Shown: positions 20,758 to 32,991 of the stretch, piece by piece | Layout of the letters: every line of letters begins with the position of its first letter | Numbering within the stretch: position 1 is the stretch's first letter | NCBI GenBank assembly: GCA_026388655.1 | Contig: JAPLJI010000109.1 | Coordinates: 1 to 60,503, forward strand | Source: Pseudomonadota bacterium | GTDB lineage: Bacteria > Desulfobacterota > JAPLJL01 | Direction: 5' to 3' | Length of the DNA stretch: 60,503 nucleotides | Program-made: the position numbers and the translations under genes | Notes under the pieces: generated by a model | What the model was told of the DNA's origin: nothing | The model's input: the letters and a program-made list of their open reading frames with translations, nothing else | Database searches by the model: none

Positions 20758-21732
20758 TTATTTGGAGATTCCCGTGATGGAATTGCGCGGGAAATCGAAA
20801 AGCAGTTCCCTTTCCCCTTCATATTCAAGCCAGAGGCGTTTTTCCTTTAGCACCTTTCCAATTACCACGGCGCTTATCCCCCTCCGGTCAAACATCCGGA
20901 CTATCCGGCGGGATTTCGGAGGTGGAGCGGTAATCACGAATCCAAAGGACGGAAAGGTCAAAAGCCAATCGGCCATGGAGAACTTTTGGACCGGGTAAAG
21001 GACCGATTCAAGCGTGATCACCGCGCCCCGGCCCGACGCTTCGAGGAGCATGCCCAGGCTGGTCACCACCCCTCCATTGCTTATGTCCTTGGCCGCGTGG
21101 GCGAGTTTCTTCCCGGCTATCCGGGACAGTAATCCGAGATCCCCCAGGATTTGATCCGGTTTCTTCCAGTAATGAGTATCCCAGGTGCGCGCCCCGCCCT
21201 TACCCCTGCGCCCGCGCCTCAAGTCCATCGCCAGGATCACGTCGTCCCGAACCCGGGCCTCGCTGCTCATCAATAAATGCCTGGCCAAGCCCACCGCCGC
21301 CCCGGCCAGGCCGGGAGCGGGTGCGTCGGGATGCAAATGGCCCCCGACCACCGGGAGCCGGAGCCGCCGGATCTCGGTTTTTATCCCTCTCAAGATTGGT
21401 TCCGCCAGCCTGGGATTGGGGACCGAGATCACATCCACCAGCCCCAGGGGTTTCCCCCCCATCGCGTAGATGTCATTGGTGTTGGCGATGACCAGGGCCC
21501 GGCCGGCCGCAAAAGGATCCTTCTGGAGATAAAGGGGCCAAATCCCATCCGCCGACAGGAGAAGGTAGCCGCCCCGGACCCGAATGGCGCCGGCATCCTC
21601 GCCCATCCCGGCCTTGACCAGGAACTCGCCCGCCGGGTTGGCCAGCCGGGCCACCGCTCCCCCGATCGGGGATTTTCTTTTCAGTTCCGGCGCGGACCGG
21701 ATGGTCCGGATTATTTTTGCCAGCGAATCCAT
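20758..21732 (-). CDS. AIR synthase-related (PurM/SelD/HypE superfamily) ATP-binding protein
   Basis: A 324-residue protein with the superfamily's ATP-binding features: AGMGEDAGAIRVRGGYLLLS, NTNDIYAMGGKPLGLVDVIS (the N-D-(I/L)-x-AMG motif), PVVGGHLHPDAPAPGLAGAA and AHAAKDISNGGVVTSLGMLL. It resembles stand-alone PurM-like proteins of unknown substrate (methanogenesis-marker or sll0787-like groups) rather than true PurM or ThiL. It lacks the N-terminal Cys/Sec loop of SelD, so it is not selenophosphate synthetase. Monocistronic; the substrate cannot be inferred. Confidence 0.75.
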   Translation of the reverse strand: MDSLAKIIRTIRSAPELKRKSPIGGAVARLANPAGEFLVKAGMGEDAGAIRVRGGYLLLSADGIWPLYLQKDPFAAGRALVIANTNDIYAMGGKPLGLVDVISVPNPRLAEPILRGIKTEIRRLRLPVVGGHLHPDAPAPGLAGAAVGLARHLLMSSEARVRDDVILAMDLRRGRRGKGGARTWDTHYWKKPDQILGDLGLLSRIAGKKLAHAAKDISNGGVVTSLGMLLEASGRGAVITLESVLYPVQKFSMADWLLTFPSFGFVITAPPPKSRRIVRMFDRRGISAVVIGKVLKEKRLWLEYEGERELLFDFPRNSITGISK

Positions 21733-22728: not shown

Positions 22729-23337
22729 ATGCCGCAAGTAATCGCCTACACCAATGTCTTGGTCCTGAACCGTTCTTTCATCCCCCTCCACATGACCACG
22801 GTCCGGAGGGCCTTCTCCCTCCTTTACCAGGACCTGGCCCGGGCGGTGAATGAGGAGTTCCGCACCTTCGATTTCCAGAGCTGGAGCGAGCTCTCGGTAG
22901 CCACCCACTCCGATACGATCGGCCTGGTGGACCGGGCCATCCGGGTCCCGCGGGTGATCGCCCTGACCTCCTTTGACCGCTTCCCCAGACGGACCGTCCG
23001 TTTCAGCCGGATCAACATTCTGGCCCGGGACCAGAATACCTGCCAGTACTGCGGCAAGCGTTTCACCCGGACCGACCTGAACCTGGATCATGTCAACCCC
23101 CGTTCCCGCGGCGGTCTTTCCACCTGGGAGAACGTGGTGACCAGCTGCATCGCCTGCAACCGGAAAAAGGCCGGGCGCACCCCCGCCGAGGCGGGAATGA
23201 AGCTGATCAAGAAGCCGGTCCGTCCCAAGTGGACCCCGCTTTACCGCCTGCCCCTGGTTAACACCCCCTACAAGGAATGGCAGCTTTTCCTGGATTTCGT
23301 GGACGCTGCCTATTGGCATGTCGAGCTCGAAGCCTAA
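22729..23337 (+). CDS. HNH endonuclease-family protein
   Basis: A 202-residue protein. The N-terminal part (VIAYTNVLVLNRSFIPLHMT, VRRAFSLLYQDLARAV) is the usual head of this group, and the HNH core is ILARDQNTCQYCGKRF, LNLDHVNPRSRGGLSTWENV, TSCIACNRKKAGRTPAEAG, with the zinc pair CQYC/CIAC and catalytic H in LDHV. It belongs to the widespread chromosomal 'HNH endonuclease' family of unknown cellular role, not a homing enzyme. Its end overlaps the next gene by 20 bp, so the two are translated together. Confidence 0.88.
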   Translation: MPQVIAYTNVLVLNRSFIPLHMTTVRRAFSLLYQDLARAVNEEFRTFDFQSWSELSVATHSDTIGLVDRAIRVPRVIALTSFDRFPRRTVRFSRINILARDQNTCQYCGKRFTRTDLNLDHVNPRSRGGLSTWENVVTSCIACNRKKAGRTPAEAGMKLIKKPVRPKWTPLYRLPLVNTPYKEWQLFLDFVDAAYWHVELEA

Positions 23338-23910: not shown

Positions 23911-23919
23911 GGAGGTTTT

Positions 23920-25290
23920 ATGCCCGAAAGACTTTTAATCATCGGCGGGGTGGCCGGGGGAACCAGCGCGGCGAGCCGCGCCCGGCGGATCAACCCCGGC
24001 CTGGAAATCGTCCTGTTCGAAAAGGGCCCCTTCGTCTCCTACTCGGCCTGAAGCGAGCCCTATTACATCGGGGATGTAATAAAATCGCCAGAAAAACTGA
24101 TCGCCCGCGCTCCCGAGGTCTTCCGGGAAAAGCAGAAAATCGATATCCGCCTTAAACACGAAGTGGCCGGGATCGACCCGGGGGCGAAAAAACTCCGGGT
24201 CCGGAATCTCGAGAACGGGAAGGAAATCGAGGAAGCCTACGACCGCCTGATCATCGCCACCGGGGCCAAGCCCCGGGAGCTGGATCTTCCGGGGAGCAAT
24301 CTTGCCAATGTCTTCCGGCTTAAATTCCTGGAAGAGGCGATCCGGCTGAAAAAATTCCTGGATACCGAGAAACCGGCGCGGGCGGTCTCGATCGGGGCCG
24401 GGTTTATCGCCCTCGAGATGGCGGAAGCCTTCCGCGGTCGCGGATTGGAAAACACCATCCTGCACAACGATGCTCTGCCCGGGGGCAAGCTTGAGCCCGA
24501 GATCGCCGGGCTGGTCCGGAAGGAGCTCGAGGAGCACGGGGTCAAATATGTCCCCAATGTAGTGGTCAAGGAATTCAAGGAGGGCGCGCAGGGACGGGTC
24601 GGGGAAGTCGTCACCGCCGGGGGGAATTACCCGGCCGATCTCGTCCTTTTAAGTGTCGGGGTGGTCCCGGAGGTGAAACTCGCGAAAGACGCCGGCGTGG
24701 CCCTGGGGCCGACCGGCGCGATCGCGGTCAATGAGCGCCAGGAAACCAGCCTGCCCGGCATCTACGCCGCCGGGGACTGCTGCGAAGTGAGACACCGGGT
24801 TTCCGGCCGGCCGGTTTTCCTGCCCCTCGGGGATGTCGCCAACAAGCAGGGCTGGGTGGCGGGTGAAAACGCCGCCGGGGGAAAAGTCACTTATCCGGGA
24901 GTTCTGGGTTCCGCCCAGTTCAAGTGCTTCGACCTCGAGATCGGGCAGACCGGCCTCCTGGTTCAGGAAGCGGAGAAGCTTGGTTTCTCCGTTTATGCCC
25001 AGCTGATCGAGGACGCCAGCCGGACCCGGATCTATCCCGGGAGCCGGTCCATCCTGGTCAAATTAATCATCGACCGGAAATCCCATGTCCTCTTGGGCGC
25101 CCAGATCGCGGGGAAGGACGGCGCCGCCCTGCGGATCAATACCCTGGCGGTGGCGGTTTATAAAAAGATGACGGTGGAGGAGCTGGCGGAGCTGGATTTT
25201 GCCTACGCCCCGCCCTTCTCGCCGGCGATCGATCCGATCCTGGTCGCCGCCCGCGCCGCGGAAAAAGAACTGGCAGGAAAAAAAGACTAA
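23920..25290 (+). CDS. CoA-disulfide reductase / NADH oxidase family, candidate selenoprotein (Sec44 = TGA)
   Basis: From ATG 23920 (GGAGG at 23911-23915) one frame runs 456 codons with a single in-frame TGA at 24049-24051. The N-terminus is an FAD Rossmann motif (LLIIGGVAGGTSAASRARR). The sequence around the stop is FEKGPFVSYSA-U-SEPYYIGDV, which aligns with [21 protein letters not shown] of Staphylococcus CoA-disulfide reductase: the TGA sits exactly on the redox-active Cys43. Downstream are the NAD motif (SIGAGFIALEMAEAFRGRG), YAAGDCCEVRHRVSG, GDVANKQGWVAGENAAGG and DFAYAPPFSPAIDPILVAAR, so the rest is intact. A hairpin fitting bacterial SECIS rules follows the TGA. Likely role: flavin-dependent reduction of a disulfide, persulfide or oxygen with NAD(P)H. 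A nonsense pseudogene is the alternative, but the exact catalytic position argues against it. Confidence 0.82.
24053..24088 (+). promoter_or_regulatory. Candidate bacterial SECIS element
   Basis: Starting 1 nt after the TGA: lower stem GCGA (24053-24056) / TCGC (24085-24088), an internal loop, then a perfect 8-bp stem TATTACAT (24061-24068) / ATGTAATA (24074-24081) with apical loop CGGGG. The distance from TGA to apical loop is 17 nt, and a G is among the first two loop bases; both fit the known constraints for SelB-dependent elements. Confidence 0.72.
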
Positions 25291-27097: not shown

Positions 27098-28015
27098 ATG
27101 GCCCCCCGGGAAATAAAGCATTATAAAATCGCCGAGCTCGAGAAATTATCCGGTCTGCCCCGCCGCACGATCCACTTCTACCTGGCCGGGAAGCTTCTGC
27201 ATTCCCCGGCGCGCACCGGGAAGACCATGGCTTACTACGATGAAGCCCACCTGAAAAAACTCCGCTTCATCCGGGAGGTGAAAGGCCGGGGGGTTCCGCT
27301 CCTGGCCGTCCGCCGGATGATCGCCGACCGCGAAGCGGAAAACGCGGAGGCCTTCGGGGCCAGGCTCGACCCCGCCTTCGCCCGGGAAAAAGCCGCCCTG
27401 CCCCGTTCCCGGGAACCCCGGAAGCCGAAGGGAATAAAGACCCGGGAAACCATTTTGGAGGCAGGCTCCCGCCTCTTCCGCGAAAAGGGGTACCGCAACA
27501 CCCGGGTCAGCGACGTGACCCGGGGCCTGAACATCGGCAAGGGAACTTTTTATTTTTATTTCTCCGACAAGAAGGAGCTTTTCCTCGAATGCGCCCCCCA
27601 GATCTTCCGGGAGCTTTTCTCCCGGGGCCTGGCCGAGATCCGGGAGGAAAAGGATCCCCTGAAGCGGCTCATCCTCCGGGCCGAGACCGTCCTCCCCGTC
27701 CTCTCCGAATTCGCGGTGATCATCGATCTCGCCCGGGAGGCGCTCCTGGACCCGGATCCCAAGGTCCGGAAGCTCGGCCAGGACATCATCCTTTCCATCC
27801 GCCGTCCCCTCGAATCCGACTTCGAGAATGGCATTCAGCGGGGCCTCTTCTCGCCCGGGGACAAGCGGATCGTGGGCACGCTTCTGATCGGGATTTTCGA
27901 AAGCCTCTCTTACCTCCAGGCGGTCAACCCCGAGATTTCCCCGGACGAGATCAAAAAAACCCTTTTCGGGCTCCTGACCCGCGGATTGTCGGTTCCGGAA
28001 AAGCGAAAAGGCTGA
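27098..28015 (+). CDS. MerR-TetR hybrid transcriptional regulator
   Basis: A 305-residue protein with two DNA-binding modules. Residues 5-75 are MerR-like (HYKIAELEKLSGLPRRTIHF, HLKKLRFIREVKGRGVPLLA). From about 110 a complete TetR domain follows (TRETILEAGSRLFREKGYRN, RVSDVTRGLNIGKGTFYFYF, SDKKELFLECAPQIF) with a C-terminal ligand domain. These hybrids are typical of deltaproteobacteria near acyl-CoA metabolism genes. The gene precedes the thiolase-ligase operon, whose promoter is overlapped by a perfect palindrome, so it is a good candidate for its controller. Which module binds that site cannot be read from sequence. Confidence 0.88.
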   Translation: MAPREIKHYKIAELEKLSGLPRRTIHFYLAGKLLHSPARTGKTMAYYDEAHLKKLRFIREVKGRGVPLLAVRRMIADREAENAEAFGARLDPAFAREKAALPRSREPRKPKGIKTRETILEAGSRLFREKGYRNTRVSDVTRGLNIGKGTFYFYFSDKKELFLECAPQIFRELFSRGLAEIREEKDPLKRLILRAETVLPVLSEFAVIIDLAREALLDPDPKVRKLGQDIILSIRRPLESDFENGIQRGLFSPGDKRIVGTLLIGIFESLSYLQAVNPEISPDEIKKTLFGLLTRGLSVPEKRKG

Positions 28016-31182: not shown

Positions 31183-32991
31183 ATGGGAAAGACCGTCGCG
31201 ATCACCGGGGTGAACAGCTATTTCGCCGGCACCCTCCTGCCCCGGCTCGACCGGGATCCGGAGATCGAGAAAATCATCGGGATTGATGTCGCCCCCTGGA
31301 AAGGCACCTCGCCCAAGGTGACTTTCTTCCGGGAGGACATCCGCAGCCCGAAAATCGCCGGCCTCCTCCAGGGCGTGGACGCGGTCTACCACCTGGCCTT
31401 CATCGTCGGGGAGATCGCCGACAAGGAAAAGACCCGGGACATCAACATCAACGGCTCGAAGAATCTCTTCTCCGCCTGCCTCCAGAACGGGGTTAAAAAA
31501 GTCATCTACACGAGTTCGATGACCGTCTACGGCTCCCACCCGTTCCAGCCCCTGGGCCTGACCGAGGAATCCCCCCTGATCGAAAACCGGGACAGCTATT
31601 ACAACTCGAACAAGATCGCAGTGGAAAGCTTCGTGAAGGATTTCTTCAAGCCCCACCCCGGGATCACGCTTACCATTTTCCGCGCCGGCCTCCTCTGCGG
31701 CCCCCGCATCAACAACATGTTCTCAAAGCTCTGGTCCCTCAAGGTCTCGAGCCTCCCCGCCGGCCGGCAGTCCTACAACCAGTTCATCCACGAGGAGGAC
31801 CTGGGGGAGGCCCTGCATCTGGCGCTGAAGAAGGATATTCCGGGGGTCTACAACCTCACCGCCGACGACGCCATCTCGACCTTGGGGTGCTTCCGGGCCG
31901 CCGGGGTCAAGATCATTCCCCTGCCCACGCCCCTCCTGAAGGTGGTCTCCCGGATCGGTTTCGCCCTCGGGCTTTTCCCCGCCGGCTCGGGCTGGGTCAC
32001 CCTGGGCGAGTACACCATCTTCGGCCTGAACCAGAAGTTCAAGGCCGCCACCGGCTGGCGCCCGAAATATTCCTCCGAGCAGACCTTCCGGTCCTTTCTC
32101 CAGGCCCGCGCGGAACGGGCGGAGAAGAACACCGCCAAGCAGTCCCTTTTGACCTGGTTTTACCGGACCCCGGCCGTTTCCAAGCGGGGGCTGCAGGGCA
32201 TCGAAGGCCTGATCGCGCTGATCAGCAAGGTCCCCGGCCTCCGGATGGCCTGGCCCTGGCTGAGCCCCAAGAAGAACAGCATTACCTACCTGCCGACCAA
32301 CCGGAAAATCGAGCCGATCGCGCCCATGACCATCAAGGTGGGAAAGGATGTCGGATCCACCTCCAACGAAATCCTCCCGGAAAACATCCTGCACGAGCTG
32401 ATCGACCGGGCCAAGCATCACATGATCATGGACGAGTGTATCTGCCGGACTGCCTTCAAGTGCGAACATTTCACCAAGGACGTGGGCTGCATCTTCATGG
32501 GCGAGACGGCCATGTCATTCCCCCCCGGACTCGGGCGGATCGCCACCAAGGAAGAGGCGCACCGGCACGTGGACCGGGCCGTCTCGCTCGGCCTCCTGCC
32601 CCTGGCCGGCAAGGTTAACGTGGACAACACCGGTTTCCTGGTGCCCGACCGGAAGAAGCTCCTGAGCGTGTGCTTTTGCTGTCACTGCTGCTGCATGATG
32701 GGATATTTCCGCCACGCCTCCCCCGATCATCTCCGCCAGATCTTCCCACCGGTGGAGGGAATGAGCGTCACGGTCACGGAGAAATGCAAAGGTTGCGGAA
32801 CCTGCGTGGAGACCTGCGTCTTCGACGCCATCACCCTGAAGGACGGCCGGGCGGTGCACTCGGAAAAATGCCGGGCCTGCGGGCGCTGCGTAACCTACTG
32901 CCCGAACGGGGCGGTGCGGATAACCATCTCAAACCCCAATTATAAGGAGGACGTCCTCCGCCGGATCGGGTCGTTCGTGGACCTGTCTTGA
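31183..32991 (+). CDS. SDR (NAD-dependent epimerase-like) fused to cysteine-rich ferredoxin module
   Basis: A 602-residue fusion. Residues 1-300 form an extended SDR: TVAITGVNSYFAGTLLPRL (degenerate glycine motif), DAVYHLAFIVGEIADKE, VIYTSSMTVYG and the YNSNK catalytic pair (DSYYNSNKIAVESF). After a linker comes a region typical of stand-alone Fe-S proteins of anaerobes: DECICRTAFKCEHFTKDVGC, then SVCFCCHCCCMMGYFRH, then two [4Fe-4S] motifs (CKGCGTCVETC and CRACGRCVTYCP). A flavin-free link between NAD(P)H chemistry and ferredoxin is suggested, but the activity is unknown. It starts after AAAGGGGGCAACC. It is downstream of the thiolase and ligase, with a hairpin between them. Confidence 0.8.
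   Translation: MGKTVAITGVNSYFAGTLLPRLDRDPEIEKIIGIDVAPWKGTSPKVTFFREDIRSPKIAGLLQGVDAVYHLAFIVGEIADKEKTRDININGSKNLFSACLQNGVKKVIYTSSMTVYGSHPFQPLGLTEESPLIENRDSYYNSNKIAVESFVKDFFKPHPGITLTIFRAGLLCGPRINNMFSKLWSLKVSSLPAGRQSYNQFIHEEDLGEALHLALKKDIPGVYNLTADDAISTLGCFRAAGVKIIPLPTPLLKVVSRIGFALGLFPAGSGWVTLGEYTIFGLNQKFKAATGWRPKYSSEQTFRSFLQARAERAEKNTAKQSLLTWFYRTPAVSKRGLQGIEGLIALISKVPGLRMAWPWLSPKKNSITYLPTNRKIEPIAPMTIKVGKDVGSTSNEILPENILHELIDRAKHHMIMDECICRTAFKCEHFTKDVGCIFMGETAMSFPPGLGRIATKEEAHRHVDRAVSLGLLPLAGKVNVDNTGFLVPDRKKLLSVCFCCHCCCMMGYFRHASPDHLRQIFPPVEGMSVTVTEKCKGCGTCVETCVFDAITLKDGRAVHSEKCRACGRCVTYCPNGAVRITISNPNYKEDVLRRIGSFVDLS

Follow-up and report, generated by a model that had tools for sequence, protein, structure and literature searches.

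Selenocysteine (Sec) in flavin-linked disulfide reductases has been documented thinly. Zhang et al. (2006) described an 'NADH oxidase' selenoprotein family whose one member came from Geobacter metallireducens (PMC1794560), and the GOS survey added one more (PMC2398784). Reviews of 2022 (PMC9312934) and 2026 (PMC13188914) list the family as an FAD-dependent oxidoreductase (CoA-disulfide reductase; TIGR03385/COG0446, WP_011365774.1), the latter giving its motif as UGxP. In the cysteine-containing CoA-disulfide reductase (CoADR) of Pyrococcus horikoshii, Cys48 is the catalytic cysteine (PMC6026696).

Here we analysed a stretch of 60,503 nucleotides (the window) that carries a new member of this selenoprotein family, known in the literature since 2006. 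The window gene and the G. metallireducens family share the protein family, Sec at the redox Cys, a deltaproteobacterial distribution and a UGA followed by a downstream hairpin. Compared by catalogued motif, however, they differ: UGxP is catalogued, whereas the window protein has USEP and most of its clade UPTP or UExP, which would place the new member in a subgroup distinguished by the residue that follows Sec. With the Cys CoADRs of Thermus (6ruz), P. horikoshii (3kd9/5l1n) and Staphylococcus aureus (1yqz), it has in common the full-length fold with FAD, NAD(P)H and dimerisation domains, a single redox residue and the Tyr in AYAPPFSP, but the redox residue is Cys in those enzymes and Sec in the predicted window protein. 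NADH-dependent persulfide reductases (3nt6, 8a56) contain the same reductase module and, unlike the window protein, a rhodanese tail.

A CoADR-like frame with one in-frame TGA

The features of the locus are collected in Table 1. Translation with TGA read as Sec bore out the sequence-only reading, which had described a frame of 456 codons broken only by this TGA: the frame runs from the ATG to a TAA at 25288–25290, and its sole internal TGA, codon 44, lies in the segment SYSA-U-SEPYYIGD. Immediately upstream of the ATG is a Shine–Dalgarno-like GGAGG, for which both congeners have purine-rich equivalents. A mechanical gene caller returned only 24163–25290 (GTG start, 375 aa), just as had been expected of a standard caller, and the Sec reading restores a gene of which standard annotation would keep 375 codons. 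Other frames of the window that stay open across a TGA were screened as well; none was a convincing selenoprotein, although this screen would miss a Sec located among the first ~35 codons of a frame.

Table 1. Coordinates of the predicted selenoprotein gene and its Sec-insertion signals in the window
Feature	Position	Strand	Basis or detail
Predicted selenoprotein gene	23920..25290	+	TGA=U translation; TIGR03385, Pyr_redox_2, Pyr_redox_dim and 6ruz matches
UGA codon, predicted selenocysteine 44, redox-active Cys site	24049..24051	+	homologue counts; 3kd9/6ruz alignment; PMC6026696
GGAGG ribosome-binding site before ATG	23911..23915	+	sequence; congeners' upstream regions
Bacterial SECIS-type hairpin	24053..24088	+	folding, shuffles, conservation among TGA relatives
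Lower stem, GCGA/UCGC	24053-24056/24085-24088	+	hairpin fold; 4 bp
Upper stem, UAUUACAU/AUGUAAUA	24061-24069/24073-24081	+	8 bp; 9 with C-G closing GGG

The protein matched the TIGR03385 CoA-disulfide reductase model at 440.8 bits (E 4.9e-132; residues 4–444) over its full length (1–439 of 439). Since the equivalog cut-off of that model, 578.8 bits, is not reached, we call the protein CoADR-like. It contains Pyr_redox_2 and Pyr_redox_dim domains together with a single redox residue in the ~42–48 region rather than a CxxxxC pair, the combination that marks the CoADR/NADH oxidase/NADH peroxidase superfamily. The solved relative 6ruz, in the 45%-identical class, aligned over the full length (E 9e-113). 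That the TGA occupies the redox-Cys position of the family had been claimed from the sequence alone; codon 44 indeed aligns to the redox Cys of both 6ruz and 3kd9. No rhodanese domain was matched in the 456-aa protein, which ends at residue 456, and it is therefore not an Npsr.

TGA alternates with cysteine codons among homologues

The homologue set comprised 110 loci, 80 from a contig collection, 29 from genomes of relatives and the window itself; some represent the same genome twice (e.g. L019/L107 and L020/L108), and a distant paralogue (L002) was set aside. Codon 44 was TGA in 46 loci, TGC in 39 and TGT in 25, with no other residue encoded, which answers whether relatives carry Cys or TGA here: they have only these two (46 TGA, 64 Cys), and a hairpin accompanies the TGA. 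The same TGA is present in two congeners (L019 and L020), whose proteins are 91% and 89% identical to that of the window, and in another 43 loci, without exception at codon 44. A family represented by one protein in the 2006 survey is thereby extended to dozens of members. Comparison with L019 and L020 gave dN of 0.01–0.04 and dS of 0.20–0.40 on both sides of the TGA; the codons before and after it are under purifying selection. Values against L109 and L112 downstream of the TGA were left out because of an indel shift.

Other stop codons in the set were considered and discarded. A TAG inside L116 lies outside the aligned frame (codon 44 of this locus is TGC), and extra TAA codons in L071 and L122 coincide with the end of the gene, at the C-terminal limit of the match.

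A hairpin downstream of the UGA is conserved with Sec

The hairpin was present as the sequence-only reading had drawn it, with a 4-bp lower stem, an 8-bp upper stem and the loop CGGGG, which becomes GGG if the closing pair is counted into the stem. Its folding energy is −15.0 kcal/mol (z −2.74), and none of 200 dinucleotide shuffles folded equally well. Because 472 of 20,000 synonymous-codon reshuffles (2.4%) reached the native energy, however, this single hairpin is by itself only moderately unlikely and would be weak evidence if taken alone.

We take the strong evidence to be the conservation of the hairpin across TGA relatives and its loss in Cys relatives. Folding z-scores 3' of codon 44 averaged −2.1 in 32 TGA loci compared with +0.1 in 50 others (Mann–Whitney p = 3e-12, a value that ignores the relatedness of the loci). 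In the upper stem, from pair 13–31 inward, 92–100% of 37 distinct TGA sequences are paired at each position, whereas four of these pairs fall to 33–59% in 64 Cys sequences. Pair 17–27 shows a compensatory change from C-G to U-A in L071 and L122, and pair 14–30 changes from U-A to C-G in nine rows. The 4-bp lower stem of the window is not conserved, pair 6–37 being formed in 5% of TGA sequences. In the Smithella Cys rows that lie within the Sec clade the helix is eroded (e.g. GATGTA to GACATG).

The genome encodes the Sec-decoding machinery

The genome that contains the window (194 contigs, 94% complete) was searched family by family for the Sec machinery, the absence of which had been named beforehand as fatal to the selenoprotein assignment. 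All of it was found: tRNA-Sec (76.1 bits, above cut-off; tRNA-SeC with anticodon tca according to ARAGORN), selB (373.9 bits), a full selA match on contig 118 (556.7 bits) and selD (380.1 bits; contig 189, 41466–42386). The selD gene carries its own in-frame TGA (LARASG-U-AAK), at what we take to be the usual Sec/Cys site of the SelD active site, and is a second selenoprotein of the genome and a built-in positive control for Sec decoding. The locus in the window combines the features by which bacterial selenoproteins are recognised: UGA at a redox Cys, a Sec-linked 3' hairpin, and tRNA-Sec, selA, selB and selD in the genome. We conclude from its sequence that 23920–25290 is a genuine selenoprotein gene, with Sec predicted as the active-site residue of a thiol-reducing flavoenzyme.

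A partial second selA match (contig 155, 20549–21010; model positions 298–454, 130 bits) adjoins selB and may be either the remains of a selA or a gene truncated in assembly. Nearly every member of the phylum sample (51 of 59) has selB, which therefore does not set the TGA forms apart. No selB match above cut-off was obtained in three of 15 TGA-form relatives (G001, 82% complete; G011, 85%; G034, 94%). The last of these carries the TGA form SYSAUGIPYNIA (L127).

Distribution of Sec on the protein tree

On a tree of 105 proteins the Sec label requires seven changes, at least six of these changes being forced by well-supported branches, compared with 32.7 in shuffles. The clade of the window holds 37 Sec and seven Cys rows, and its hairpins share a core around UUACAUC-GG-GAUGUAA; the Cys rows (Smithella and L097) are apparently reversions. 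Another Sec clade, a small one made up of L119, L120 and L123, has its hairpin in a different register, AUCGGCAG...GUCGAU, with G-C in place of A-U in L120, and L127 is a lone Sec case. Constraining the two Sec clades to group as one costs 42 log units with a borderline AU p of 0.04, where the tested group comprises all Sec forms except L127 and was named after the tree was seen. The tree and the hairpin registers suggest separate gains of Sec in the two clades. For the fuller history, in which Sec would have arisen more than once (in the large clade, in L119/L120/L123 and in L127) and later reverted to Cys several times in Smithella, and in which the clade of the window would be distinct from the catalogued UGxP form, we consider the chances evenly balanced. 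The close Sec/Cys pairs of Smithella provide natural material for studying what selenium brings to a flavin-linked disulfide reductase.

Alternative explanations of the TGA and of the activity

As the assembly is metagenome-like and consists of 194 contigs, the stop codon could be a true nonsense codon in a pseudogene, or a TGC or TGT misread during sequencing or assembly, but nothing beyond its presence in such an assembly speaks for this. The TGA is not a read error, since the two congeners carry it as well; its recurrence at one codon in 43 further loci, the purifying selection on both flanks, the linkage of the hairpin to TGA and the full Sec machinery likewise argue against a pseudogene or an error, and we regard both as scarcely credible. 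It is also very improbable, if marginally less so, that the UGA is never read through and that translation of a shorter, working protein begins at GTG 24163 instead. That frame of 375 aa is open, but its product would lack two elements maintained by purifying selection upstream of the TGA, the redox residue and the GG-A-GG segment that binds FAD, and it is the ATG at 23920 that has the GGAGG site.

A different question is whether the same selenoprotein might work as an NADH oxidase or peroxidase, with a Sec-SeOH form serving in defence against O2 or peroxide. The nearest solved relative, 6ruz, was deposited as an NADH oxidase, NADH oxidases and peroxidases belong to the same superfamily, and the 2006 paper uses the name 'NADH oxidase' (PMC1794560). 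On the other hand, the scores of CoADR models (440.8 and 419.1 bits) lie far above those of the Streptococcus H2O-forming oxidase model (258.5 bits) and of NADH peroxidases (~214 bits). Moreover, the position of the catalytic Tyr429 does not vary in any of the 110 homologues, which, from general knowledge of the family, we take to fit a CoADR-type active site. An oxidase or peroxidase role thus seems unlikely, though less remote than either reading without Sec.

Proposed mechanism and substrate

The locus very probably encodes a flavoenzyme of the CoADR/NADH oxidase group that is homodimeric, depends on FAD and NAD(P)H and has its single redox Cys replaced by Sec. SelB carrying Sec-tRNA-Sec would bind the hairpin just 3' of the UGA, and Sec would be inserted instead of termination, the machinery and the hairpin being the observed elements of this step. 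By analogy with the family, NAD(P)H would reduce FAD, which would in turn reduce the selenosulfide of the enzyme, and the Sec44 selenolate would attack a CoA-linked disulfide, persulfide or polysulfide at its S–S bond, releasing a thiol or sulfide. The sequence-only reading had proposed a selenium-dependent NAD(P)H:disulfide or polysulfide reductase. Its selenium part is upheld by the TGA, the hairpin and the machinery, whereas the substrate is suggested by family resemblance, with the TIGR03385 score below cut-off (440.8 versus 578.8 bits). The most likely role, by analogy, would be low-molecular-weight thiol or sulfane-sulfur reduction in an anaerobic, selenoprotein-using bacterium.

In P. 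horikoshii CoADR, Y65, Y66, P67 and H367 narrow the channel (PMC6026696). In the alignment of the 6ruz/3kd9 set these correspond to A62, R63, A64 and R370 of the window protein, Arg63 being present in all 42 Sec rows of the main clade, and these residues could leave room for CoA disulfide. The window locus and its distant relatives have no flanking genes in common, and the neighbourhood yields no operon clue, so that context says nothing firm on the substrate; in one congener only a nitroreductase-ferredoxin gene and the next gene recur beside the locus.

Other genes of the window

Upstream of the selenoprotein gene, 20758–21732 (minus strand) encodes an AIR-synthase-like protein whose closest match is methanogenesis marker 2 (259 bits against a cut-off of 365). 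Its weak look-alike match to selD (55 bits) was rejected, and it is not selD. At 22729–23337 (plus strand) lies a short HNH endonuclease of 202 aa with a weak match (53 bits) to the HNH part of IscB/Cas9d. Downstream, the plus strand encodes a regulator with an unusual fusion of MerR and TetR DNA-binding domains (27098–28015) and a single-frame fusion in which an NAD-dependent epimerase domain is followed at the C-terminus by a 4Fe-4S ferredoxin domain (31183–32991).
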